From positions 1 through 64,000 of IMG/VR virus record IMGVR_UViG_3300027996_000009: DNA of 64,000 nt; one strand, given 5' to 3'. Below the pieces are notes generated by a model. The model did not search any database. It had not been told where the DNA came from and worked only from the letters and a program-made list of their open reading frames with translations. Numbering within the stretch: the first letter of the stretch is position 1; each line of letters begins with the position of its first letter. Source of the DNA: a virus. This document shows positions 2,963 to 64,000 of the stretch, in pieces. The position numbers and the translations under genes are program-made.

Positions 2963-3816
2963 AGGAAGAGATAGCAGGCGATGCCGATCGCCGACCCGAT
3001 GACTGACGAGGCGACCATCATGAGGCCCACTCGGAGCTTCTTGGGCTCGACTACTGGCCGTTCTGCCCAGTGCAGGGCAAGGTCTGCCAGAGGAATGCTG
3101 ATGTGCTTACCTTTGTCGGTCCGCACGATCCCACAGAACACATCGTGCTCCGAGCCATCATCCAGCTTGATCTTCTTCCTGGCGTAGTCCACGAGGGTGT
3201 ATGGGCCCTCGTTGGTGGCCAGTGAGTAGACTAGGTCGCTAATGGCCGGGGGCTGGCGGTCGGAGAGCTTCACGTCCTCCATTTGTTCTGGGTTCTCAGC
3301 GTGGTCCGCATCGATTTCATCATCTGTAAGGCCGAACACGGCCTTTTTGATGTATCTGTCGGAGACGAATGGCCGGATCTTTTCTGCGAAGTCCTGTCTC
3401 ATCTTCTCGGCAATATCGCCCTCGATGGCGGTGTGGCCTCCGGTCGTCACCGTCACAGCGCCGGTCGAAGCATCGTAGAGCACGTTGTTGGTTCCGGCGG
3501 CGAGCGCCTGGATGGCTGGAAAGGTGGACTGGCCGACCTTGAAGGCAGCCTTGATGTCACGGCCGAATCCACTGAACACTGCGGTGCAGCCACAGCGGCA
3601 CCCGTATTTGTATCGTTCGTCGTCATCTAGCGAATCAAGGCAGTTCTTTGTCGAACCGTCTGCAGCCTTGTAGTTCACTTGACCGTTTGCGAATGTCTCC
3701 GTTCCCATATCCTTGTATACCCGAAACGACGGAGTTCCGCTTGAGGTCGTAGAAGTTACGGGAGAGATAAGGTGCCCTGAAGCGCCATTCTCTGTAGAAT
3801 GATCCTGATGCTCCAT
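2959..3816 (-). CDS. C-terminally membrane-anchored protein of unknown function (285 aa)
   Basis: The protein has a low-complexity Ser/Thr-rich N-terminus, a CRCGC cluster near residue 73, a mixed central domain and a single hydrophobic C-terminal segment (VGLMMVASSVIGSAIGIACYLFL) that would anchor it with the bulk on one side of the membrane. No enzyme motif is seen. A TGATGC element lies at the second and third codons (3806-3811). It shares a divergent gap with the gene at 3840. Confidence 0.65.
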   Translation of the reverse strand: MEHQDHSTENGASGHLISPVTSTTSSGTPSFRVYKDMGTETFANGQVNYKAADGSTKNCLDSLDDDERYKYGCRCGCTAVFSGFGRDIKAAFKVGQSTFPAIQALAAGTNNVLYDASTGAVTVTTGGHTAIEGDIAEKMRQDFAEKIRPFVSDRYIKKAVFGLTDDEIDADHAENPEQMEDVKLSDRQPPAISDLVYSLATNEGPYTLVDYARKKIKLDDGSEHDVFCGIVRTDKGKHISIPLADLALHWAERPVVEPKKLRVGLMMVASSVIGSAIGIACYLFL

Positions 3817-3839
3817 CTGACACCCCTCTGGAGGACATA

Positions 3840-4040
3840 ATGAATCGCGTCGTGAGTGTAGACAAGTCTCTTTCTTCTGGAGGCAAGGTTACTTGGTTCG
3901 TAACGCTTGAAGGCGGCGGCGGTTCCAGGACCAGAATCGAGGTTGGCGAGGCTGAAGCTCAGCGGTTTGAGCAGGCACTAAACGCCCAAACCTCTGATGG
4001 CGGAAGTCGTCTGCTGACCGAAACCATGCCTCTCTCTTAA
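3840..4040 (+). CDS. small hypothetical protein (66 aa)
   Basis: The start at 3840 has GGAGGA at about 7 bases, a strong ribosome site. The sequence is basic and strand-rich in the first half (KVTWFVTLEGG) with a helical second half. No motif recognised. It is followed after 9 bases by a GTG-started gene, so they are likely co-expressed. Confidence 0.6.
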   Translation: MNRVVSVDKSLSSGGKVTWFVTLEGGGGSRTRIEVGEAEAQRFEQALNAQTSDGGSRLLTETMPLS

Positions 4041-4049
4041 GGGGTTAAT

Positions 4050-4331
4050 GTGACTAGGAAGAACCCTGAAGAAGACTTGGACCTTAATACGACTAACGAG
4101 GAGTCCGGTTCAGGACCCTCGTGGGGCGTCGAGGTAGAGCCAACGGGACCTGGGAACAGTGTGTTCTACTCGGCCCGCAGAGTTGTCCTAGGAGATGATT
4201 ACGTCGAAATTCAGCTCCTAGATGGCAAATACATGACGTTGGCTACCGGGCAGGTGCGCAAGGTCTTATCGATGCGTGCGAATGGGGCATCGGGCTATAC
4301 TGGCAAGACTCCTTCGGACGAGATTTATTAG
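4050..4331 (+). CDS. hypothetical protein (93 aa)
   Basis: Starts at GTG 4050 and ends directly against the next GTG (TAG-GTG). An acidic, disordered N-terminal 25 residues precede a compact strand-rich part. No family is recognised. The zero spacing to the next gene places it in one operon with the metallopeptidase/2H fusion and the portal. Confidence 0.65.
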   Translation: MTRKNPEEDLDLNTTNEESGSGPSWGVEVEPTGPGNSVFYSARRVVLGDDYVEIQLLDGKYMTLATGQVRKVLSMRANGASGYTGKTPSDEIY

Positions 4332-5624
4332 GTGGACCGTCTTATCTCCGGTTTTCGACTGCTCCCCTCAGGGACAAGAACAGCAAATGGGCCCCTAAAG
4401 CCTAGCGCTGATGATGATGTATGCCCTGAGGCTGTTGCTGAGTTTTTTGATTCAGTTTATATAGCAACCGAGAAGCTGAGATCGTTCGGGCTCTCTGATA
4501 AGGACTTTGGCGGTCCAATCAAACTTGTCGCCAGAAAAGGCGATGAGAAGGCGAATGGTCGCTACACGCCGGGCACCGACTCAACAGTCATCTTCCACCC
4601 ACCGGTCAGAAGCGCCCCAGATGTGCTGTGGGTAATTATCCACGAGACGTTGCACCGCATCTGGGCGAAGCAGCTCACCAAAGAGTCACATAAAATTTGG
4701 GGCTTAATCTGCAATTCGATTGGTAAGCCGATCGATGGAGATATGGCCGATGCTCTGACCAGGACCGTCAAATCCAATCCTGAGCGTTCTAGTCTCTGGT
4801 TCTTCTTTCAGAAGCACTTTGGGGATGACTTAGGGGTGTTTCGCAACTGGCTCACGACCAAAAAGATGAGCGATTCGTTCCCTAGTGACTACTCCAACGC
4901 AAACCCGTCTGAGGCGTTCGCTGAAGTAGGAGCGGACATAATCCTTGGGCGAGGTCGAGCTGGCCGAGAGATTCGCCGGTCTGGGTCTATGGTCAAGAAA
5001 GTGTTCTTGTCCCTGGTTCAGAACCTTCGCCATGAAGAGATGTCCGAGGACATAGCACTGGTTCGACACGTTCCCGGCCCCGGAGAAGCTCGATCAGATC
5101 CGAATTTTCTCCAGCTGCAGGTGGACTTCTACTACTTGCGTTGGAAATTAGGCGATTGGGTCCGCAAGCGCCTGTCTAGTAGTGATGTAATCAAGTTAGA
5201 GGAGCGACCTCACGCGACACTTTATTACGGGGCCGATAGGCGAGACCTAGCTCAGATCCAAAAGATCATCGGAGGGCATGGTCGGTCATTAAGGATGATG
5301 CTTGGGTCGCTCAACGTATTCGAGCACGAGGATAAGGACATCCTCTATTTTGAGCTGATCGGCGATCCTCTGCCAACTCTACACGCGCAGATCAAAAAAC
5401 TCCCAAATACTAGACCGCCGACGCACCCAGATTACGTGCCGCATTTGACTGTGGCCTATATGAAAAAGGGTTCAGCTAGGAAATTCATCGGATCAAATCC
5501 TTTGCGGATGATCATTAGTGCACGTCGAGTAACGGTAATAGATTCGGTTGGAATCGAATCAATGATCCGCACCACCCAAGCTGAAGAACTTGTCCGGGAG
5601 CCACTACTGCTTGCTGGACGGTAG
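4332..5624 (+). CDS. metallopeptidase-like / 2H phosphoesterase fusion protein
   Basis: Two enzyme-like halves are joined in 430 residues. The N-terminal half has the zinc motif HETLH at 104-108, with a later PSEAFAE segment near 192-198 that could give the third ligand. This pattern occurs in phage head-associated metallopeptidases. The C-terminal half has both H-x-T signatures of the 2H phosphoesterase fold (2'-5' RNA ligase/cyclic phosphodiesterase family): HAT at 294-296 and HLT at 371-373, about 75 residues apart as expected. Acb1-type anti-CBASS nucleases belong to this superfamily, so cleavage of a cyclic signalling nucleotide is one possibility. tRNA or RNA end processing is another. 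It sits upstream of the portal and may be packaged. Confidence 0.78.
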   Translation: MDRLISGFRLLPSGTRTANGPLKPSADDDVCPEAVAEFFDSVYIATEKLRSFGLSDKDFGGPIKLVARKGDEKANGRYTPGTDSTVIFHPPVRSAPDVLWVIIHETLHRIWAKQLTKESHKIWGLICNSIGKPIDGDMADALTRTVKSNPERSSLWFFFQKHFGDDLGVFRNWLTTKKMSDSFPSDYSNANPSEAFAEVGADIILGRGRAGREIRRSGSMVKKVFLSLVQNLRHEEMSEDIALVRHVPGPGEARSDPNFLQLQVDFYYLRWKLGDWVRKRLSSSDVIKLEERPHATLYYGADRRDLAQIQKIIGGHGRSLRMMLGSLNVFEHEDKDILYFELIGDPLPTLHAQIKKLPNTRPPTHPDYVPHLTVAYMKKGSARKFIGSNPLRMIISARRVTVIDSVGIESMIRTTQAEELVREPLLLAGR

Positions 5625-9371: not shown

Positions 9372-9460
9372 GGAAAAATAGCTTTTAGTCAACTGCGGCC
9401 AAAACCGCTTGCCCGATGACGAGCTTCAAGGCCGGTTAACAGCAGCCCACGGCCTGGTGA
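9372..9460 (-). ncRNA. candidate guide-RNA (omega/reRNA) region of the TnpB-like gene
   Basis: TnpB and TldR proteins use a guide RNA that overlaps the 3' end of their gene and runs past the stop. Here, just beyond the stop, a small hairpin (GCGG, loop TTTTGG, CCGC) at about 9391-9411 is followed by GTTGAC and a short A/T-rich stretch that could be the guide. The location is right, but the boundaries are unknown and no transposon end is recognised. Confidence 0.3.
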
Positions 9461-10541
9461 CCGTAAATTTGTTCCTGACATTGAGCGCGGCATTCTTGCT
9501 CATCGGACTTTCGTTGCCACACGAATCGCAGAGGAAGGTGTGTTTTGTGATGCTCCCAGAAGCTCCACAAAGCGAGCACCTCTTCTCGTTACCGGATACG
9601 TTCACGTAATAAACCGGTATCGCCGCAGCCGCAGCCTTCTCTTCAATCCTACGACGAAGCACTTCATAGAAGTGCGGCCTCATCGATGGCTTGCTTCTTT
9701 TCCTCTTCGAAGGTGGAGGGATGCGAAGGTCCTCGATGACGAGGATTGATCCGCTTCCAACCCACTCAACGAGTCGGTTAGCTGCTGCGTGGCAAAAAGT
9801 CCTAGTTCGCATGTGACGCCGTCTGCTTAGCCGTTTGAGGACTCGACGCACAGAACGCGTCTCAAGTCCATCTGCCTTACGCACAGCCAGTCGCCGCTCA
9901 AGTCTTCTCTTTGTTTTTCGGCTTGTCTCCTCCATTACATTCTGAGCAACGGTGACGATTCGGAGAGATTTCCCCTCGGCGCTTACCGCTGCTACTTCAT
10001 TCTTACTCCCTACTGCAACGCCAGCAGGAAGGGTTCCTTCTCGTTTTGATTCTTTAAGAGTCACGGACACGGTCGCTACGAGTCGTCCCCTTTTAAGGGA
10101 GACCGCGAGTGTGTCGAAGGACTTCACGTTTTTATAGTCAGCCTCGAACCGGGCTGGAATGCTGCAAGGTATGTCCTTACGGCCCGCAATTGTCCAAATT
10201 CTGATCGTCTCTTTACGGGGTGGGCAGGCATCGCGCTTTGCCTTGCCGATCAAGAATAGGGCGCGTGGCTTACTGAAGTGAATCGGCCCATATATCCTCC
10301 GGTTTCTCCTCCGAGCGCGTGAGTATTCAGATGCCACCGATCGAATAGCAGTGCATGTGAGCTGAGATTTCAGAGAGCCTTTCACTTTTGCGTAGCTGAG
10401 CTGATGCATATCTACTGCGGAAAGCGCGGTTCCGTCTTCAAACGCAATCTCAGACACGCGCTCTTGGATGAGTCTGAATGACTCAATTGTTGCCATAAGA
10501 TCAGCGTCGTTGGCAATCCTAAGTGGAAGCACTTTCTGCAT
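9426..10541 (-). CDS. TnpB-like protein lacking RuvC catalytic residues (TldR-like)
   Basis: The 371-residue protein has the TnpB/IS605 OrfB layout: a helical N-terminal REC-like part, three RuvC segments and a C-terminal zinc ribbon (CSLC at 322-325, CDSC at 338-341). RuvC-I reads GVAVGSKNEVAAVS, with Ala176 where active family members have Asp. RuvC-II keeps the acid (VIEDL, Glu270). RuvC-III reads SPMSKNAALN where DRDxNAA is expected, so this Asp is replaced as well. RNA-guided binding without cutting is the natural reading, as in TnpB-derived repressors. No TnpA, inverted ends or target duplication is seen. It lies on the opposite strand to the structural genes around it and has its own promoter. 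Confidence 0.88.
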   Translation of the reverse strand: MQKVLPLRIANDADLMATIESFRLIQERVSEIAFEDGTALSAVDMHQLSYAKVKGSLKSQLTCTAIRSVASEYSRARRRNRRIYGPIHFSKPRALFLIGKAKRDACPPRKETIRIWTIAGRKDIPCSIPARFEADYKNVKSFDTLAVSLKRGRLVATVSVTLKESKREGTLPAGVAVGSKNEVAAVSAEGKSLRIVTVAQNVMEETSRKTKRRLERRLAVRKADGLETRSVRRVLKRLSRRRHMRTRTFCHAAANRLVEWVGSGSILVIEDLRIPPPSKRKRSKPSMRPHFYEVLRRRIEEKAAAAAIPVYYVNVSGNEKRCSLCGASGSITKHTFLCDSCGNESPMSKNAALNVRNKFTVTRPWAAVNRP

Positions 10542-25042: not shown

Positions 25043-25876
25043 ATGGCCAGAGCAGTTGAGAAGCAGCGCAAGCGGCGCCGCAGCTTGGATTCCAAGCAGC
25101 GGACCGAAGCGGTGCGTCTCTATGAGCTCGGCCTATCTGGTCCTAAAATCGCTCTGCAGTTTGATGTAGGAGTTGACCAGGTCTACAAGGTACTCCATAC
25201 CGCAGGCGTGTGCCGCGATGTGACTGGCTGTCGAAACCGGCGATGGACGGACGATCAAGAAGACCAGATCATTGATGCTTACCTGGAGGGCGAGACTCAG
25301 GTCGGATTAGCCCGAACCTGGAATACAAGCCAGTCAGCGATCTCCTCGATCCTGAAAAGGACGGGAACCCAAACGCGCTACAAAAAGCGAGAGCTTTCTG
25401 CGACTGAGCTGCAGAGCGTTAAGAATCGGTATGAGGCCGGAGAGACGGCAGGCGCTATTGCTGAAGACTTTGACGTCTTCCACAAGCGCATTCTCGTCGA
25501 GCTCAGGCGTATGGGAGCGAAGATTAGGAAACGCCCTGGCTTCCACACGTGGACTGATGACTGCGGTCGCGCCTTCACATTCAAGTCTCTCTGGGAGCTA
25601 CGAGTTGCCCAGCATTTGGACCTGCTTGGGAAGTCTTGGGACTACGAAAAAGCTAAATACACAGTCATCGTAGATGATGGTGTCGCCACCTACACGCCAG
25701 ACTTTTGGATCTACGCAACGTGCGGAGAGCTGGAGGCTGTTGTGGACGTCAAGGGCCGATGGTGGCCCACTGGGCAGCAGGAGAAAATCGAACTCTTCTG
25801 CCAACAGTATCCCCACATTCCGTTCGAGATTTGGGACGCTCGCGTCCTAAAGGGATCAGGCGTTCGCCTTTTTTAA
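25043..25876 (+). CDS. free-standing homing endonuclease, PD-(D/E)xK type, with captured tube-gene start
   Basis: The N-terminal 150 residues hold two or three helix-turn-helix units (LYELGLSGPKIALQF, EGETQVGLARTWNTSQSAI, YEAGETAGAIAEDFDV). The C-terminal domain has the nuclease core FKSLWELRVAQHL (Glu185), YTPDF (Asp220) and VVDVKGR (Asp235, Lys237), as in phage homing endonucleases of the EDxHD/Vsr-related group. Its first six codons (MARAVE) match the first six of the tube gene that follows (MARAVD) at 16 of 18 bases. I infer insertion at the tube start, with the original start and promoter now driving the endonuclease. Confidence 0.82.
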   Translation: MARAVEKQRKRRRSLDSKQRTEAVRLYELGLSGPKIALQFDVGVDQVYKVLHTAGVCRDVTGCRNRRWTDDQEDQIIDAYLEGETQVGLARTWNTSQSAISSILKRTGTQTRYKKRELSATELQSVKNRYEAGETAGAIAEDFDVFHKRILVELRRMGAKIRKRPGFHTWTDDCGRAFTFKSLWELRVAQHLDLLGKSWDYEKAKYTVIVDDGVATYTPDFWIYATCGELEAVVDVKGRWWPTGQQEKIELFCQQYPHIPFEIWDARVLKGSGVRLF

Positions 25877-25901
25877 GGTATGAACAGGAGCATAAACCCT
25901 T

Positions 25902-26384
25902 ATGGCTAGAGCAGTTGACACAGACCTCTATCACAACTTCCGGTTTCACGTTGTCGACCCGGCGGGTCAGAACCTGGACCCAGTTGCAGGCTTCCGGACC
26001 GCCAGCATCCCCGACCTCACCGTCGACATGGCGGAGTACCGTGAGGGCGTGTTCAAGTACACCCGAAAGTATCCTGGCATTCCGAAGGTCGGTGATTGCT
26101 CCCTGAGCAAGGGCGTGGTCAAGAAGGACTCCGACTTCCTCCTCTGGATCTTCAAGTGCATCAACGGCGGTGAGACCTACCGTTCTGACATCACGATCCA
26201 GGAATACCACATTGCCGACGAATGGGGCATTGACGGTAGTCCCTCGAAGGTCATTCAGCTCAAGGAGGTCTTCCCGACCTCTGTCAAGCCGACCGGTGAC
26301 AAGGACGCTTCGAGCTCCGACGTCGCCATCCAGGAGATCACCCTCGCTGTCGAGGAGATAGTCGTGGAACTCGTTGTCAACTAG
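25902..26384 (+). CDS. tail tube protein (gp19-like, 160 aa)
   Basis: The layout is that of T4 gp19-family tube proteins: an N-terminal YHNFRFHV strand, a FRTASIPDLTVDMAEYREG loop, KYPGIPKVGDCSLSKGVVKKDSDFLLWI, and a late DVAIQEITLAVEEI strand. Hexamers stack to form the tube inside the sheath. The gene is bracketed by homing endonucleases. Its first codons are echoed at the start of the upstream one and its last ten codons at the end of the downstream one. AGGAG lies 11 bases before the ATG. It has no promoter of its own. Confidence 0.85.
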   Translation: MARAVDTDLYHNFRFHVVDPAGQNLDPVAGFRTASIPDLTVDMAEYREGVFKYTRKYPGIPKVGDCSLSKGVVKKDSDFLLWIFKCINGGETYRSDITIQEYHIADEWGIDGSPSKVIQLKEVFPTSVKPTGDKDASSSDVAIQEITLAVEEIVVELVVN

Positions 26385-26416
26385 AGACTTAGGTTTCTAC
26401 CTTGATTCGGGCATAG

Positions 26417-26455
26417 TTGCGGGCTAGTCTGGGATACAAACCCAGGAGCCCGCAA
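26417..26455 (+). promoter_or_regulatory. hairpin that buries the ribosome site of the GIY-YIG endonuclease gene
   Basis: TTGCGGGCT (26417-26425) pairs with AGCCCGCAA (26447-26455), and inside it CTGGG pairs with CCCAG around a seven-base loop. The gene's AGGAG (26444-26448) lies within the right arm, 11 bases before ATG 26460. Phage T4 keeps several homing endonucleases translationally silent in the same way. There is no T-run, so it is not an ordinary terminator. Confidence 0.75.
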
Positions 26456-26459
26456 TTCC

Positions 26460-27587
26460 ATGTACAGAGTCGTAGTTATCAAGAATCCAATTGATGGCGC
26501 AGTAATTTACGTTGGCCGAGAGAAGCAGTCTGGAAACGGCCGATACGCGCTCAACAGGCTTTTGTCGGATACAAGGCGTGGCGGTAACAGCAAACGTCAT
26601 TTAGTGGTCAGACGCTTGGTCGAACAAGGCCTTAGTTTGTGCTACCTAGCTATCGCCGAGAATCTGCACGTAAATGCAGCTAAGAAGCTGGTGAACGAGC
26701 TACGGGAACAGCACGGAGTTCAGCTCTCCCGTTACGGGTCCACTCGGCCTCGTGTCCACCAGAAAACCGATCCCAACTCGCCATATTTGGACAAAGCAGA
26801 GGTCTACTACGTCTACGAACTGATCCGGCCAGACACCGACAATGTGTTCTACGTGGGCAAGGGGTCAGATCGTCAGCAACCACGAGTTGACGCTCACATC
26901 CGGAAGGCTAAGTCCGGGAAGAAGGGGCACAAGTTCGCGATCATCCGCAAGCTACTTGCGGCCGGTCTCAAGCCCGTTGAGCATAGGATCGCCGAGAACC
27001 TCACCGAGTCCAAAGCGCTCAAGCTCGAAGTCGAGCACATTAGTTCAATAGGATTGAACCTTCTTGCAAACGATGCCTCTGGTGGTCAGACGGCGCCCAC
27101 TGGCGATGACCACTGGACGCGTAGGCATCCGGAGAAGGTTCTACGAGGTGAGAGCCATCCCATGCGGAGGGATCCTAGTCGAGCCGCACGCGGGCCGCAA
27201 AACGGCGCATACACTAAGCCTGAGTGCCGGGTTCGCGGCGCCAAGCACGGGATGTCGAAGCTGGATTACCAGCAGGTCACGAGGATCCGTGCGCGGTATC
27301 AAGAGGGATTGGACTCAGGGAAGCGAGTAACCGGGAAGCGCCTGGCCGCAGATTATGGCGTGACTCCTACCCAGATATCTCGTGTACTTCGTGGTGAGAG
27401 TTGGGACCTGCCGAATCTCATCAAGAAGCACGGCAACGCGAAGCTCACTAAAGAGCAGATCGCGTCTATTCCAGCGAAGCTCGCTGCAGGGTTGAATCAG
27501 AAGCAGCTGGCAGAAGAACTAGGCGTGAGTCATAGCCTCATCAACTACTACGCCAAGAAGATAGTCGTGGAACTGGTCGTCAACTAG
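26460..27587 (+). CDS. free-standing GIY-YIG homing endonuclease with captured tube-gene end
   Basis: Two GIY-YIG-like segments are visible: residues 2-34 (YRVVVIKNP...VIYVGRE) and a better one at 116-150 (VYYVYELIRP...VFYVGKGSDRQQPRVDAHI), with the Glu of LEVEHI near 190. NUMOD3-like repeats (HWTRRHPEKVLRGESHP, GPQNGAYTKPE) and two helix-turn-helix units follow, for DNA recognition. The last ten codons, ending KIVVELVVN, repeat the end of the tube gene at 28 of 31 bases including the stop. This indicates insertion at the tube 3' end. Translation is probably held back by the hairpin upstream. Confidence 0.87.
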   Translation: MYRVVVIKNPIDGAVIYVGREKQSGNGRYALNRLLSDTRRGGNSKRHLVVRRLVEQGLSLCYLAIAENLHVNAAKKLVNELREQHGVQLSRYGSTRPRVHQKTDPNSPYLDKAEVYYVYELIRPDTDNVFYVGKGSDRQQPRVDAHIRKAKSGKKGHKFAIIRKLLAAGLKPVEHRIAENLTESKALKLEVEHISSIGLNLLANDASGGQTAPTGDDHWTRRHPEKVLRGESHPMRRDPSRAARGPQNGAYTKPECRVRGAKHGMSKLDYQQVTRIRARYQEGLDSGKRVTGKRLAADYGVTPTQISRVLRGESWDLPNLIKKHGNAKLTKEQIASIPAKLAAGLNQKQLAEELGVSHSLINYYAKKIVVELVVN

Positions 27588-48868: not shown

Positions 48869-48888
48869 GCATCAGTCCTTTTCTACCA
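48869..48888 (-). promoter_or_regulatory. extended -10 promoter for the 703-residue fibre gene
   Basis: On the reverse strand TGG-TAGAAA (-10 at 48880-48885) is followed after five bases by TGATGC at 48869-48874, and AGGAG lies close to the start codon. Confidence 0.55.
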
Positions 48889-49215
48889 AGCCCAGACCCG
48901 ATACTCTTCGTCTCCAGTAGCGCCCCGCAAGTAGACGATTTTCCGCCTGAAGGTGAAGAAGTTCATCGATTCCTGGGCGAGGAGATCGCCTTCGACGGTG
49001 ACACCATCGAATGAGAACTGGATCTCTCTGGCGGAGTGATCATTCGCCACGATCAGTCCCTGACTGATGAAGTTGGTTTTTCCGTCACCCTTGTCGATGA
49101 ACACGAGTTTGCAGTCGGCGAAGTCGGTAGTCAGGTCTGGCCCGATGCCGCCACTGGCGAGGTCCCTCACGTAAAAGCGGTAGCTACGAACGCTCGAATC
49201 GAATGGTCCAGACAT
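48883..49215 (-). CDS. small structural protein, copy 2 of a tandem pair (110 aa)
   Basis: Strand-rich with a conserved FFTFRRKIVYLRGATGDEEYRVWAW end. It aligns over its whole length with the adjacent upstream gene at 49228 at roughly four fifths identity, so the pair arose by tandem duplication and then diverged. GGAG precedes the ATG. The function is unknown, but duplication next to the baseplate-type gene at 49568 suggests a tail component. Confidence 0.7.
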   Translation of the reverse strand: MSGPFDSSVRSYRFYVRDLASGGIGPDLTTDFADCKLVFIDKGDGKTNFISQGLIVANDHSAREIQFSFDGVTVEGDLLAQESMNFFTFRRKIVYLRGATGDEEYRVWAW

Positions 49216-49227
49216 TGATTACTCTCC

Positions 49228-49557
49228 TTACCAGGCCCAGACCCGGTATTCTTCCCCACCAGACCCGCCGCGCAGGTAGACGACTTTGCGTCTGAAGGTG
49301 AAGAAGTTCATGGATTCCCCTGCCACAAGGTCGCCCTCGATGGTGATGCCGTCAAACGAGAATTGAATCTCAGTTACGGTGTCGTCATTGGCGATGATCA
49401 TGCCCTGACTGACGAAGTTGGTCTTTCCGTCGCCTTTGTCAACGATCACGAGCTTGCAGTCCGCAAAATCAGTGGTCAACGTCGGACCGGTTCCGCCGCT
49501 GACGTTGTCTCGTACGTAGAAGCGGTAACTACGAACGCTCGAATCAAAAGGTCCCAT
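49228..49557 (-). CDS. small structural protein, copy 1 of a tandem pair (109 aa)
   Basis: The paralogue of the gene at 48883. Differences cluster in the region of residues 18-35 and 58-65 (DNVSGGTGPTL against DLASGGIGPDL; NDDTVTE against NDHSARE), while both termini are nearly identical. Clustered change in two short stretches suggests exposed loops with different partners. Ten bases separate it from the gene at 49568. Confidence 0.7.
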   Translation of the reverse strand: MGPFDSSVRSYRFYVRDNVSGGTGPTLTTDFADCKLVIVDKGDGKTNFVSQGMIIANDDTVTEIQFSFDGITIEGDLVAGESMNFFTFRRKVVYLRGGSGGEEYRVWAW

Positions 49558-60115: not shown

Positions 60116-62704
60116 TTAGGTGGAAAGCCTCAGTGAAACTGACTCGTAGAACACCTGCTCGTCGTGAAGAGCACGCAGCTCAGTGATGATGATGTCGAGA
60201 CGACCGGGGTGGAGATTGACGTGCTCACCGAGCCACCCACGGAACAGGGCCAACATGTCGTCTTCAACGAGACGCTGATCTTGATTAGGATCATGCTCGC
60301 GCGTATGAGCACCCTGTTGTCTAGAAAACCCTTTTAGGGCTGGGTGCAAAACGTGCCATTCTTCATTATGATTTATCGCGTTTTCTGCCCGCTTAGCGAC
60401 ACTGCCTGTTTGTTTCCCCAACTTATGGTCGCGCCCAACAATGGAATGCCAAAATGGGTAGTATTCGTGGGACGTGAGCTCTTCACCTTTCAAACCCTTA
60501 AGGGAACTGGTGATGCGATCCCACTGAGGAATCTGCTTTCTAACAGCGTCCGCCATACTCTTTGAAGTCTTAACCGCCCCCCTCTCTATTTTACTCCTAC
60601 CAGGCTTTTTAGAACCGGCCTGCCAATCAGCCATTAGCTTGACCGGATCGAGCTGATTGTTGTTGATCGCAATTCCGGGTGGTGGTTGAACCTCCAACTT
60701 ATCAACTGAAATTGGTTGGAGCGCCGGGTGCCCAAGCGTCCGAAGCATGTCACCCCTAGCGGCTACACGCTGGGCATGAGCCTGAGGCTCTTCACCTATG
60801 TGTCGCTTAATTTCTGCGTGGGTATGCCACGCCTGTGTCGCCCGGTCCCGAAGACCATTGAGGATACCTGTCCACGGCCCACTGTGGGTGTAGTTAGGGA
60901 TCACAGTCCTGAAATAATCAGCTCCAGAACCTCTCTTGAACATCCCCGCCTCTAACTGACCAGTCTTTGGGTTCTCTACCGCCGGAGCTCCGAGGGTGCT
61001 GCGCAACCAGTCCCCCATGTTGACGGTGTAGGGCACAACCGCCCCGGTATTTGGATCTTTGTAGGATCGTTCAAAAACCCCAAGCCGCCCTTTGTTTCCA
61101 CCTAGTCGTGGATCAGTAAGCAGTCTCTCCGCTCTCGCTAGAGCCCTCCCCTGGTAGGCCTTGATAGCATCTCTCGGCGACATATCTCCGTGTTGGGCCG
61201 CATCGAACTCCGAACCCATTGCGAGTCTACCGAGTGCATCGCCAGCAGCTCGCTGTTTCACAGGGTCGAGAGGTGCGGCCTGCACATCGCGTGCTCTTTC
61301 CAGGGCACCTTCTGCATGTTTATCAATCGTCTGGTCGCGGGCAACCTGTGCCCGCTCCTTGGGCGTCATAGCTTTAAGTTCTTCAGGAGTGTAACTAGGA
61401 CGGGCTGCGCCAGTCCCCTGCCGCCTATCGTTAATTGCGGACCGCAGACCCGCTTCGCCCTGCTGTCTTCCTCGTGCCCCTAAGCCTTCGACCCCCGCTT
61501 GACCTTCTATATATCTTCCCATGTTCGTCAATTGCTTAACAAAGGTTGAAGCGTGGTCTTGGTGCGAGTCGTGGTCAACTTCGGGGTTTATTGACCCTGC
61601 CTCCCACGCCGCCTGCGCTTCCGCCCTCTTTGCACGGTGTGCATCCATTGCATCAGAAAAACCTGCCGGATCACCTCTAAAATCCTTTTTAACGGGCTCT
61701 CGCCCTAGCCCGAGGATAGCGTCATCGTGGTGCCTGAACTTCGTGGCGATGGCATTCGCCATAGCGGATCGACCGCCAATCGCATTACCCTTACCGGCGG
61801 ACGGAGTCGCCCATGTGGCAAGAATCTCTGAAGCCCTAGCATCACTCTGAGGATTACTCTGCCCATCATTTAGTGCAGCAGAGATGTGTGGGTGAAGACG
61901 GGTCACCATGTCATTTATATGAGGCCTTACATTGTCCTCGACGTACTTCGCCGCAGCGCGTTTAGCCTCCGTACGCTGGGCGCGGGTCATGCCTGCTCCA
62001 TGACCTTTAGCGTGTACCTCCTTAGCCCCAGCAAGCCCTTTATTGATGGCATGTCCGCTTTGGCGGGCGTCATAGCCCTCTTTGTAGCCCGCAGCGTATT
62101 CTCCACCCTCGGCCGGGTCCTCGTAAGCCTTTCCACGCTTGGATGCCACCCAACCGGCCTGATAGCCCTTACGGTGCTCAGGGGTTCCACTTGCTCCAGA
62201 TTTTGATGAAGCGGGCTTAGGCTCCGGCTCCGGCTTTGATTGCGGCGCCTGACCTCCAGATCCCCGCATGAACCTGGCAGCAGCGTCATCATCAGGAAGG
62301 GAGCCAGCATCGTCTGGATTATCATCGCTACCATCATCGATGAACAATGGCTCTGGTTCTGGTTCTGACTTTGGCTCTGACTTTGGCTCTGGCTCCTCAG
62401 AATCTTTGTGAATTTTGCGATAACCTGGATCGTTTTTCATTCTCCAATCGTGGATAGCATCGTCGTCTTCATCTTCATCTCCAGCAGCTCTGTCGCGCTC
62501 TTCTGCGCCGTCACTCCCATCATCAAAGTCATCGTCGTCGTAGTTATCCCAGTCGGGGCCCTCACTAAGGAGCTTCGCCTTGATACCTGGGGATAGGCTC
62601 TCCAGAACATCAAGGGTCTTCTGATACATTCGCTCAAGAACGGCGTTGCAAGAGTAGAACCCGTCAATGCTCTCGGCAATCAATTTGCCTACATCTACTG
62701 CCAT
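60116..62704 (-). CDS. large unknown polar protein (862 aa)
   Basis: A structured ~45-residue start (VGKLIAESIDGFYSCNAVLERMYQKTLDVLESL) is followed by an acidic region (50-140) with alternating EPKSEPKSEPEPEP repeats, then a basic central region and a large C-terminal part with mixed segments (NPKTGQLEAGMFKRGSGADYFRTVIPNYTHSGPWTGI). No catalytic motif could be named. Its ATG lies inside the 3' end of the homing endonuclease gene upstream (overlap 10 bases), just as it would once have overlapped the gene at 63558. Confidence 0.65.
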   Translation of the reverse strand: MAVDVGKLIAESIDGFYSCNAVLERMYQKTLDVLESLSPGIKAKLLSEGPDWDNYDDDDFDDGSDGAEERDRAAGDEDEDDDAIHDWRMKNDPGYRKIHKDSEEPEPKSEPKSEPEPEPLFIDDGSDDNPDDAGSLPDDDAAARFMRGSGGQAPQSKPEPEPKPASSKSGASGTPEHRKGYQAGWVASKRGKAYEDPAEGGEYAAGYKEGYDARQSGHAINKGLAGAKEVHAKGHGAGMTRAQRTEAKRAAAKYVEDNVRPHINDMVTRLHPHISAALNDGQSNPQSDARASEILATWATPSAGKGNAIGGRSAMANAIATKFRHHDDAILGLGREPVKKDFRGDPAGFSDAMDAHRAKRAEAQAAWEAGSINPEVDHDSHQDHASTFVKQLTNMGRYIEGQAGVEGLGARGRQQGEAGLRSAINDRRQGTGAARPSYTPEELKAMTPKERAQVARDQTIDKHAEGALERARDVQAAPLDPVKQRAAGDALGRLAMGSEFDAAQHGDMSPRDAIKAYQGRALARAERLLTDPRLGGNKGRLGVFERSYKDPNTGAVVPYTVNMGDWLRSTLGAPAVENPKTGQLEAGMFKRGSGADYFRTVIPNYTHSGPWTGILNGLRDRATQAWHTHAEIKRHIGEEPQAHAQRVAARGDMLRTLGHPALQPISVDKLEVQPPPGIAINNNQLDPVKLMADWQAGSKKPGRSKIERGAVKTSKSMADAVRKQIPQWDRITSSLKGLKGEELTSHEYYPFWHSIVGRDHKLGKQTGSVAKRAENAINHNEEWHVLHPALKGFSRQQGAHTREHDPNQDQRLVEDDMLALFRGWLGEHVNLHPGRLDIIITELRALHDEQVFYESVSLRLST

Positions 62705-63555
62705 GCGGGTAGCTCCTTCTTGATCGCTGAGATCAAGCCCGTTCTGTGACTACGATCCCCCCACGCTTGGCGTGCGTCGATCAGCCGTCTGTAGGTCTCA
62801 TATTTTCGCGGCAGGTGGGGGACCTGATCGCGAATCTCAAACATCCATTCTAGGATGGTAACCGAATCGTGATGCGGCCAGATCACCTGATTGGTTACTA
62901 CTGATCCCCTGGTGTTGAGTTCAGCGCTGAGGCGAGACTTTACTGATTCCAGAAACTTAGGACTAGCTCCTGCGATAGATAGACCGACCATCGGCTTACG
63001 CCCAGGTCGTGATCCGTTGCTGTGGTAAACAGATCCATCACCGTCGAATAGTCCGAGCATGAAGTGCTGCATCAGACTTTCAGGAACTAGAGGAAGGTCA
63101 ACCATCTTTAGGGACTTAGCCGGAACGACTCCTACCTGGGTGAGCCAGGTGGCCATTCGTGGGCTGCACACATTTAACGTGTAAACGTCGTCTTTGTAGG
63201 GACCACGGACACTACCCCCGACCAGGGGAAGAACGGATCGCAAGTGGTCACGCCCGCTCTCATGGCTCTGACTAACGGAGAATCCGGTGCCGTTTTTCCT
63301 CACGTTCCCATCAGCGGTCAAAAACCCCACAACGTAGGACAACGACGCCGACCACGACTCGACGAATGCTTCGTTAGGAACGAGATTTGAGCCCCCGGTA
63401 TGTGGGACTCGGATCTTCCAATAACGATTGTTCCGGAGACGTACGGAGGTCCTAGACCGACCAAGTTGGTCGGCCACAGCTCCAAGATCACGGCTCTCCT
63501 CAAGGAGGAGACGGCCCAGAGAATTATCGTCTGACGTCCAACGCTTACCGGGCAT
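62695..63555 (-). CDS. LAGLIDADG homing endonuclease with captured 3' end of the neighbouring gene
   Basis: A helix-turn-helix-like start (WTSDDNSLGRLLLEESRDLGAVADQLGRSRTSV) precedes two LAGLIDADG motifs, YVVGFLTADGNV near residue 74 and FMLGLFDGDGSV near 165, each with its acidic residue, so this is a single-chain two-motif enzyme. The last 13 residues, LISAIKKELPAWQ, repeat the end of the upstream gene (LISAIKKELPNWQ) although the DNA differs at 13 of 42 bases, mostly at third codon positions. The copy here carries the native overlap with the downstream gene's ATG. Insertion at the gene junction with a recoded end is inferred. Confidence 0.88.
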   Translation of the reverse strand: MPGKRWTSDDNSLGRLLLEESRDLGAVADQLGRSRTSVRLRNNRYWKIRVPHTGGSNLVPNEAFVESWSASLSYVVGFLTADGNVRKNGTGFSVSQSHESGRDHLRSVLPLVGGSVRGPYKDDVYTLNVCSPRMATWLTQVGVVPAKSLKMVDLPLVPESLMQHFMLGLFDGDGSVYHSNGSRPGRKPMVGLSIAGASPKFLESVKSRLSAELNTRGSVVTNQVIWPHHDSVTILEWMFEIRDQVPHLPRKYETYRRLIDARQAWGDRSHRTGLISAIKKELPAWQ

Positions 63556-63557
63556 CG

Positions 63558-63983
63558 CTATTGCCAGTTAGGCAACTCCTTCTTTATGGCAGAAATAAGG
63601 AACTCATTGATCTGATCTGAATTTGCCTGGCAAGTCTCGACCAACTCGCCAATTAGTTTATTGAGATGCGCCGTCTCGTTGACGACCAAGTGGGTGTGAC
63701 CGGCAACGCCAAAGTAGAGATATCCCTGGGTGCACGTATCTGCGCTCTGTTGCAGGACGTCCATCTGGAACGCCTTCAGTGATGTCAGCAGGGCCCTTTG
63801 ATCGGCGAAGGCCTTCTTCTTACCCTTGCCCGGCTGGGTCGTGACTTCGTTACCTTCGTCATCCTTTGGGGGACGGCGCTTATCTGGAGAGGCTCCAGTG
63901 TTGGCCTGCTCTGATGGTGTCTTGGAGTTCGAGGATCCGCCGCCGACCTTCGCCTTCTCCACTTCGACCATCGTGTCAATCAC
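63558..63983 (-). CDS. unknown protein at the homing site (141 aa)
   Basis: Starts at GTG 63983, overlapping the stop of a gene that lies off the right edge. A disordered Gly/Ser/Lys-rich N-terminal 60 residues leads into helices (LLTSLKAFQMDVLQQSADTC, LNKLIGELVETCQANSDQINEFLISAIKKEL). Its last 13 codons are the apparently recoded copy of the ending now fused to the homing endonuclease. The product may act with the 862-residue protein, its original neighbour. Confidence 0.68.
   Translation of the reverse strand: MIDTMVEVEKAKVGGGSSNSKTPSEQANTGASPDKRRPPKDDEGNEVTTQPGKGKKKAFADQRALLTSLKAFQMDVLQQSADTCTQGYLYFGVAGHTHLVVNETAHLNKLIGELVETCQANSDQINEFLISAIKKELPNWQ
63561..63581 (-). promoter_or_regulatory. 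hairpin between ribosome site and start of the LAGLIDADG gene
   Basis: On the reverse strand AAGGAG (63576-63581) is 20 bases from the ATG at 63555, too far for normal use. TTGCC-TAACT-GGCAA at 63561-63575 forms a five-pair hairpin between them, which would bring the ribosome site to about five bases from the ATG when folded. Confidence 0.5.
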
Positions 63984-64000
63984 TTCTTGGCTGTAACGCT
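63980..64000 (-). CDS. 3' end of an unknown gene (partial)
   Basis: Six codons and a TGA that overlaps the GTG start of the next gene (GTGA). Only the final residues are visible. It is included because the overlap matches the coupling pattern of this operon. Confidence 0.3.
   Translation of the reverse strand, partial: SVTAKK

Follow-up and report, generated by a model that had tools for sequence, protein, structure and literature searches.

Gene ends in a 64,000-nucleotide stretch of viral DNA (positions 1 to 64,000 of IMG/VR record IMGVR_UViG_3300027996_000009; the whole stretch is called the window) showed that a LAGLIDADG homing endonuclease gene separates two neighbouring genes, X and Y, and ends in a copy of the last codons of X. 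The record holding the window is denoted G000, and its numbering is used where X runs beyond 64,000. Read along the minus strand, X comes first and is followed by the LAGLIDADG gene and then by Y, with two bases between the stop codon of X and the ATG of the endonuclease. Tails of X and of the endonuclease share 12 of 13 residues and 29 of 42 bases; the 13 differing bases lie within 39, as the stop codon is equal, and 10 of them fall in synonymous codons. Our best explanation, which we consider likely, is that the endonuclease gene invaded the junction of X and Y with a diverged, protein-equivalent end of X, and that the original end was displaced to the far side.

The junction of X, the endonuclease gene and Y

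The match between the two tails is far above chance. In a control of 53,628 pairs from the 328 open reading frame (ORF) tails of the record, with identity counted in the 2,000 best-scoring pairs, the X/endonuclease pair ranked second by score (60), behind tandem paralogues at 48883 and 49228 (64). Rank 3 was taken by the tails of the tail tube gene and a GIY-YIG gene in the window (score 34), and the first clear chance pair scored 30. By identity the X/endonuclease pair ranked first, and chance pairs among the 2,000 reached at most 6/13. The tandem paralogues (window 48883-49557; 109 and 110 amino acids) have a near-identical C-terminus and no PHROG match at an E-value (E) of 0.001.

Two relatives of X were found in viral contigs. 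One of them, L002, has the same occupied arrangement and belongs to a near-identical phage, so it is not independent of the window. In the other, L001, X is 76% identical and the site has no endonuclease; X ends in LISAIKKELPLWL, and Y begins within its final 10 bases, the same 10-base overlap that the endonuclease and Y form in the window. Because X of the empty L001 overlaps Y in this way, the end on the endonuclease side can be assigned to the native position, with the AAGGAG and start codon of Y, and the ancestral layout is X overlapping Y. Hence the endonuclease holds the positional end of X, and X holds a second end. Position rather than letters names the native end in this comparison, since the L001 tail differs from the two copies to about the same extent (at 13 bases from the endonuclease copy and at 15 from the X copy, counted from the alignment).

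These data bear out the anatomy given in a preliminary description of this DNA, which had claimed tails with 12 of 13 residues shared and 13 of 42 bases different, mostly synonymously, and an endonuclease copy that holds the ATG overlap with the downstream gene. Its further claims, that the element broke a junction of overlapping genes, that the native end now belongs to the endonuclease and that X has a mainly synonymous one, are supported by the empty X/Y junction of L001 and by the codon comparison; L001 is the kind of phage for which it had proposed a search.

The product of X is ParB-like, as its 301-amino-acid counterpart in L002 matched PHROG 26387 (E 3e-15); in Pfam, X gave just a ParB_N match under the cut-off (E 0.033). 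No Pfam match to Y was found at E 1 or better. The endonuclease has the two motifs with acidic residues and the fold of a LAGLIDADG enzyme. Its motifs are YVVGFLTADG and FMLGLFDGDG, preceded by a helical N-terminal region, and it matched Pfam LAGLIDADG_3 (E 5.5e-8) and PHROG 4645 endonuclease (E 2.6e-23). Across 48 sequences D82 is invariant and D173 is kept in at least 90%. An AlphaFold2 model (predicted local distance difference test score 89.3) has its best Protein Data Bank match in 2dch, the archaeal I-Tsp061I (E 1.1e-8), and many other LAGLIDADG enzymes match too.

According to our model, the LAGLIDADG gene would have invaded a junction at which the last codons of X overlapped the start of Y, and the incoming element would have carried a diverged, protein-equivalent copy of the last 13 codons of X. 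This imported copy would close X at once and leave it functional, and its differing bases would probably protect X against renewed cutting. The displaced end on the far side is read in frame as the C-terminus of the endonuclease, prolonging its last helix, and keeps the likely ribosome-binding site and the start codon of Y intact. The putative cleavage target would span the insertion point between NEF and LIS, and neither half of the occupied allele would contain it whole. Homing would proceed by repair from a donor that has the endonuclease plus its own gene end, and resistance may arise because the insertion divides the site and the second end has other codons for it.

Copied ends beside other endonuclease genes

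Window positions 25043-27587 hold a tail tube gene between two endonuclease genes, each with a copy of the nearer tube end, and these copies are hardly recoded. The upstream endonuclease gene matched Pfam HTH_7 (a helix-turn-helix, HTH, family; E 1.7e-12) and, below the curated cut-off, Phage_endo_I (E 2.1e-4); its relative in the related phage G001 matched Phage_endo_I with E 1.4e-6, also below the cut-off. We call it Endonuclease-I-like and take its product to have a PD-(D/E)XK fold.

GIY-YIG genes follow the tube gene with a tail copy in G000, G001 and L071. In G001 the tube tail is VSIELVVT and that of the endonuclease IVVELVVN. In L071 (2732-3975) the tube tail LEIELVTA is repeated directly past the GIY-YIG stop codon, in frame and outside the ORF, with 6/8 codons different. 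Judging from these alignments, the GIY-YIG case is recoded in G001 and L071, and not in the window. The window tube tail agrees with that of L026 at all 5 conserved codons, so the tube gene of the window may have been replaced later by recombination.

Start copies accompany Endonuclease-I-like genes before the tube gene in G000, G001, L026 and L032/L035, the last two being one base apart in this stretch. In G001 a stub, MARAVDTDL, precedes the endonuclease and a second start, MARAVDTDLYH (6/8 codons different), follows it; L026 has the same layout (5/6 codons different). In L032/L035 the endonuclease itself begins with MARAAS in a TAGGAG context, and the tube gene has a second start in which 5/5 codons are different; the same context is found at the tube gene of L027, L028, L041 and L071, which have no endonuclease directly before it. 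Group I introns follow codon 11 of the tube gene, past the second start, in G001 and L026 (Rfam, 75 and 88 bits). They lie two (G001) and four (L026) codons beyond the end of the stub match, as would be expected if the cut site lies there. The order at the tube gene in L023 (2260-3500) and in L026 (2260-3500) runs from the start stub through the Endonuclease-I-like gene and the recoded start to the group I intron. By their ORF tables L024 and L025 have a layout like that of G001, and they were left out of the counts.

Copied ends were also found at other genes. In G001 (L239, 18202-19290) a ClpS gene (Pfam, E 1.1e-14) is followed by an HNH endonuclease gene (PHROG 374, E 4.6e-63; no Pfam match) and then by a stranded second ClpS end outside the endonuclease ORF. 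The two ClpS ends share 18/23 residues and differ at 13/17 conserved codons. The stop codon of the stranded tail shares four bases with an ATG at which the next ORF can start, and this ORF is also readable from a GTG 36 bases upstream. The GIY-YIG genes of L146 (PHROG 314 homing endonuclease, E 1.3e-15) and L136 end in the tail of the upstream gene (DLAPLQAA), and the L146 tails differ at 6/8 codons. Taken together, these alignments indicate that genes of the LAGLIDADG, GIY-YIG, Endonuclease-I-like and HNH families are flanked by copies of gene ends in this phage and in related ones, at both 3′ and 5′ ends. In L046 (2346-4096) a NUMOD3/Endonuclease-I-like gene is followed by a gene whose start is resembled by a 64-amino-acid stub, possibly a long and more diverged start copy.

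The frequency of this architecture was surveyed in endonuclease loci from three scans (38 loci, the best 80 of 252 and the best 80 of 486). The 198 loci given yielded 197 matched, 156 non-redundant and 151 with a complete ORF; by best query the latter comprised 72 LAGLIDADG, 60 GIY-YIG and 19 Endonuclease-I-like loci. Three runs with shuffled pairing had maxima of 44, 40 and 57. The window case (L151; score 60) exceeded all three. L200 (55), which has two endonucleases in tandem and no end copy, exceeded two, and L146 (42) and L046 (41) each exceeded one. The G000 tube locus (38), L071 (35) and L136 (34) fall inside the shuffled range and were accepted from exact position and reading by eye; for L213 (37), L090 (36) and L171 (36) scan scores are all that was used. 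Start copies in L032, G001, L026 and G000 were detected by eye, outside the scan. Five LAGLIDADG loci (L147-L150 and L016) showed no end copy, with a best score of 24.

Among the 151 loci, end copies were recognised only in the window case, L146, L136, L071 and the tube loci of G000, G001, L026 and L032. Scan-negative loci were mostly not read by eye and short copies escape the scan, so that a locus with no match may still hold a copy. The architecture looks like a minority form. A scan of G001 gave 17 places with a score of at least 36 in 3,654 comparisons, with ClpS at the top (65); the known tube/GIY-YIG pair of G001 is missing from them.

Four further observations concern the same records and loci. 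The second best tail match of the G001 scan lies at 121685-123587 (L237), SWVARVGHCFLADV against NWMHRVNHCLVAGV. L200 has its two tandem LAGLIDADG genes at about 3118-4484. Adjacent genes with similar ends and a repeated start, NLIEGSLYRS, at 102602-106508 of G000 (L008) are probably paralogues. A TnpB/IS605 OrfB-like gene (Cas12f1-like TNB domain, E 1.3e-8) occupies window positions 9426-10541.

Features of the two endonuclease sites in the window, with the part of X beyond its edge
Feature	Positions	Strand	Basis or remark
Gene X, ParB-like, 301 amino acids	63558-64463 (window part 63558..64000)	minus	crosses window edge
Second (replacement) 3′ end of X, LISAIKKELPNWQ and stop	63558..63599	minus	tail comparison
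LAGLIDADG homing endonuclease gene, 286 amino acids	62695..63555	minus	Pfam, PHROG, predicted structure
Positional original X 3′ end, now endonuclease C-terminus, LISAIKKELPAWQ and stop	62695..62736	minus	position from L001
AAGGAG within captured tail (KKE codons), likely Y ribosome-binding site	62713..62718	minus	function inferred; AAGGAG also in empty L001
Endonuclease end/Y start overlap, 10 bases, ATGGCAGTAG (GTGGCTGTAG in L001)	62695..62704	minus	
Gene Y, 862 amino acids	60116..62704	minus	
HTH and Endonuclease-I-like gene, upstream of tail tube gene	25043..25876	plus	opens with tube-start copy 25043-25057
Tail tube gene	25902..26384	plus	Pfam Phage_T4_gp19, E 2.9e-17; own start 25902-25916, own end 26358-26384
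GIY-YIG endonuclease gene	26460..27587	plus	Pfam LEM-3_GIY-YIG, E 3.6e-9; tube-tail copy 27561-27587 at its end

Divergence of the copies and competing explanations

Most conserved codons are spelled differently in 8/11 pairs, including pairs whose stranded copy is not part of the endonuclease ORF. Several observations weigh against invasion with a diverged end. Over 10 pairs (ClpS not among them) 45/69 codons differ, where random synonym choice would give 41.3 (P 0.21), and the L136 tails differ at only 3/7 codons. The two tube pairs of the window, with 2/8 codons different in the tails and only 1/4 in the starts, appear to contradict a strict recoding rule. Here the GIY-YIG parallel of the preliminary description holds in part: the arrangement does recur in several nuclease families, but the GIY-YIG tails of the window are identical at 22/24 bases and unrecoded, whereas those of G001 and L071 are recoded. 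The GIY-YIG gene of L026 has a different ending and no tail copy. At the X site a single empty relative was found, and its tail is about equidistant from the two copies. Excluding the two G000 tube pairs, a post hoc choice, leaves 42/57 codons different against 33.4 expected (P 0.01), which suggests that there may be selection for difference between copies. The evolutionary logic of the preliminary description is plausible, and more general than it stated.

The strongest competitor, which we nevertheless hold to be unlikely, is that the endonuclease cuts elsewhere and that co-conversion left the altered end of X as a scar with no role in resistance. Free-standing endonucleases of T4 cut hundreds to thousands of bases from their own genes, according to passages of PMC2988022, and the copies described here are not reliably more different than random synonyms. 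A scar of distant cutting sits poorly with native and replacement ends that border the endonuclease exactly on its two sides, an arrangement seen with several nuclease families and at 3′ as well as 5′ gene ends. The group I introns of G001 and L026, close past the stub match, are also where a local cut site would predict them. Candidate cut sites were sought as palindromes in the tail; five stretches gave at most 6/11 matches, the script may have mishandled odd centres, and this line was dropped.

Rather less probable is duplication followed by drift, in which the insertion copied the end of X itself and synonymous changes accumulated later, with neither import nor protection. Near-equal peptides in the two copies and the two G000 tube pairs, which look like recent copies, fit this explanation, and both tails at the LAGLIDADG site are translated and could both be constrained. 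However, the tails differ at 8/12 conserved codons and the X bodies of G000 and G001 at 98/217, although the insertion should postdate the split of the two; this apparent excess comes from small numbers.

Stubs outside a working gene argue against drift as well. In the L071, ClpS and G001 and L026 start stubs, which lie outside a working gene as far as can be read (the start stubs might still make short peptides), 32.5 differences are synonymous and 12.5 non-synonymous. Under free drift a non-synonymous share of 59% is expected, against 12 of 45 here (P 1.1e-5, a value biased by ascertainment). The stretches were found via protein similarity, which favours few amino-acid differences and weakens the case for import. 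The mostly synonymous differences, unlike free drift, suggest that the copies diverged while both were coding, i.e. in separate phages and ahead of their meeting. Duplication plus drift and recoding in place seem to fit less well than import of an end that had diverged beforehand, probably in a related phage.

No donor of the inserted end was found among the X loci of the viral, phage and genome-contig searches. Whole X matched 15 phage records, all below 60% identity and mostly annotated ParB-like, and a 146-amino-acid piece of X gave none there. Genome contigs had no match to X or the tube gene, and phage records none to the tube gene, ClpS and a 489-amino-acid gene. ClpS was also sought in six related records and not found, with no positive control, so that this empty answer shows nothing. 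Codon usage did not convincingly mark the X tail as foreign (P 0.046, against 0.36 for that of the endonuclease), and among 289 windows of X the last one ranked 55th lowest.

It is improbable that the tail serves the endonuclease itself, for instance as a DNA-binding helix, and converged on X or was borrowed from it. Here the predicted structure gives some encouragement, as its last helix continues through residue 281, and the GIY-YIG proteins of G000 and G001, 62% identical overall, have the same last 23 residues. In an alignment of 47 of 62 suitable loci (L220, with a stop in range, L192 and 13 others left out), 41/47 homologues end at most 27 residues past an invariant RK and have no such extension, and 6/47 have other, longer ones. 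The window enzyme has 35 residues past RK, of which the final 13 are the copied tail. Because most homologues end earlier, the tail would lie outside the enzyme domain, and we judge it unlikely to be part of it. Moreover, in L071 and at the HNH gene such a tail stands beyond the endonuclease ORF, and the L026 GIY-YIG gene ends differently.

A degenerate intron or intein, spliced so that X uses either tail, is very improbable and was rejected from the Rfam results and the layout: the tails are in the same frame and relatives have group I introns at the tube gene, but the window had no Rfam match at gathering thresholds, intron families gave none at the X site at E up to 5 (just two small nucleolar RNA matches far below gathering scores), a stop codon between X and the endonuclease speaks against an intein, and the 2-base gap together with the end overlapping Y leaves no room for an intron core.

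Relation to known systems and implications

Gene hybrids made by mobile ORFs in fungal mitochondria are the closest known kind. The Allomyces atp6 case is reportedly due to Paquin. Such hybrids comprise atp6 of Allomyces, named as the first reported case, and atp6, atp9, cox2 and nad3 of Glomus (passages of PMC3630166). As described there, and as in our phages, a LAGLIDADG or GIY-YIG ORF lies near the 3′ end of a gene, a foreign and diverged C-terminal part closes the gene, and the native C-terminus stands downstream. Partial C-terminal duplications of cob and atp6 near mobile ORFs appear in a part of PMC6279837. At the X site the endonuclease ORF likewise lies between inserted and native ends, the native position being taken from L001. 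Since our record is viral, with portal and tail tube genes, and not fungal mitochondrial DNA, the X case works like a mobile-ORF hybrid and is not a member of that group. In the phages, captured ends are much shorter (about 5-23 codons), 5′ ends and Endonuclease-I-like and HNH genes are involved too, and at two sites the next gene begins within the native end. Native ends in Glomus are 91-98% identical to a close relative (PMC3630166, in part), whereas X of our nearest empty relative reaches the 76% given above.

In intronless homing by free-standing phage endonucleases, resistance of the recipient is assumed to come from replacement of the cleavage sequence by the donor version (passages of PMC12724721 and PMC2988022), which resembles the role proposed here for the second end. 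The endonuclease gene lies away from the cut in these accounts; here it lies inside a gene end and the old end is stranded behind it. Phage split genes are treated in section 17 of PMC2988022. T4 mobA/gene 60 also combines a free-standing endonuclease in a phage gene with a possibly protective sequence, but the passages of PMC5009743 and PMC2988022 ascribe protection to a 50-nucleotide translational bypass in a gene that is split, whereas here the second end makes the gene whole.

Collaborative homing, in which a free-standing endonuclease stands beside a group I intron (parts of PMC6083498 and PMC10448857), is closer to the tube gene of G001 and L026, where the intron is present and cleavage is predicted. 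There, a start stub and a recoded start also flank the endonuclease, and the window lacks the intron. At the X site Rfam found no intron at the putative cleavage site, and no self-splicing element surrounds the ORF as it would for an intron- or intein-encoded endonuclease. The origin of the collaborative arrangement is called unclear in a passage of PMC10448857, which offers endonuclease turnover as one hypothesis. Because start stub, recoded start and intron co-occur at the tube gene, collaborative homing may grow from swapping of gene ends. Engineered home-and-rescue or cleave-and-rescue drives combine a nuclease with a recoded copy of target-gene sequence. Compared with these, the cases here are natural and small, their divergence is probably inherited rather than designed, and cutting is putative. 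Among the matches listed for the open literature, with most subscription journals outside it, no phage report of copied gene ends was found.

We tentatively propose, as an idea that falls a little short of being probable, that the swapping of gene ends gives phage endonucleases a third general route into essential genes, in addition to introns and inteins, by which these genes survive. It would involve at least four nuclease families and both gene ends, and would be selected since the diverged end rescues the gene and blocks re-cutting. If this is true, it would show how a selfish nuclease can enter a junction of overlapping genes with neither gene losing its function, and phages would provide natural examples of the logic of engineered home-and-rescue drives. 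The proposal also opens to testing the ways in which free-standing endonucleases become established in genes and in which their collaboration with introns starts.

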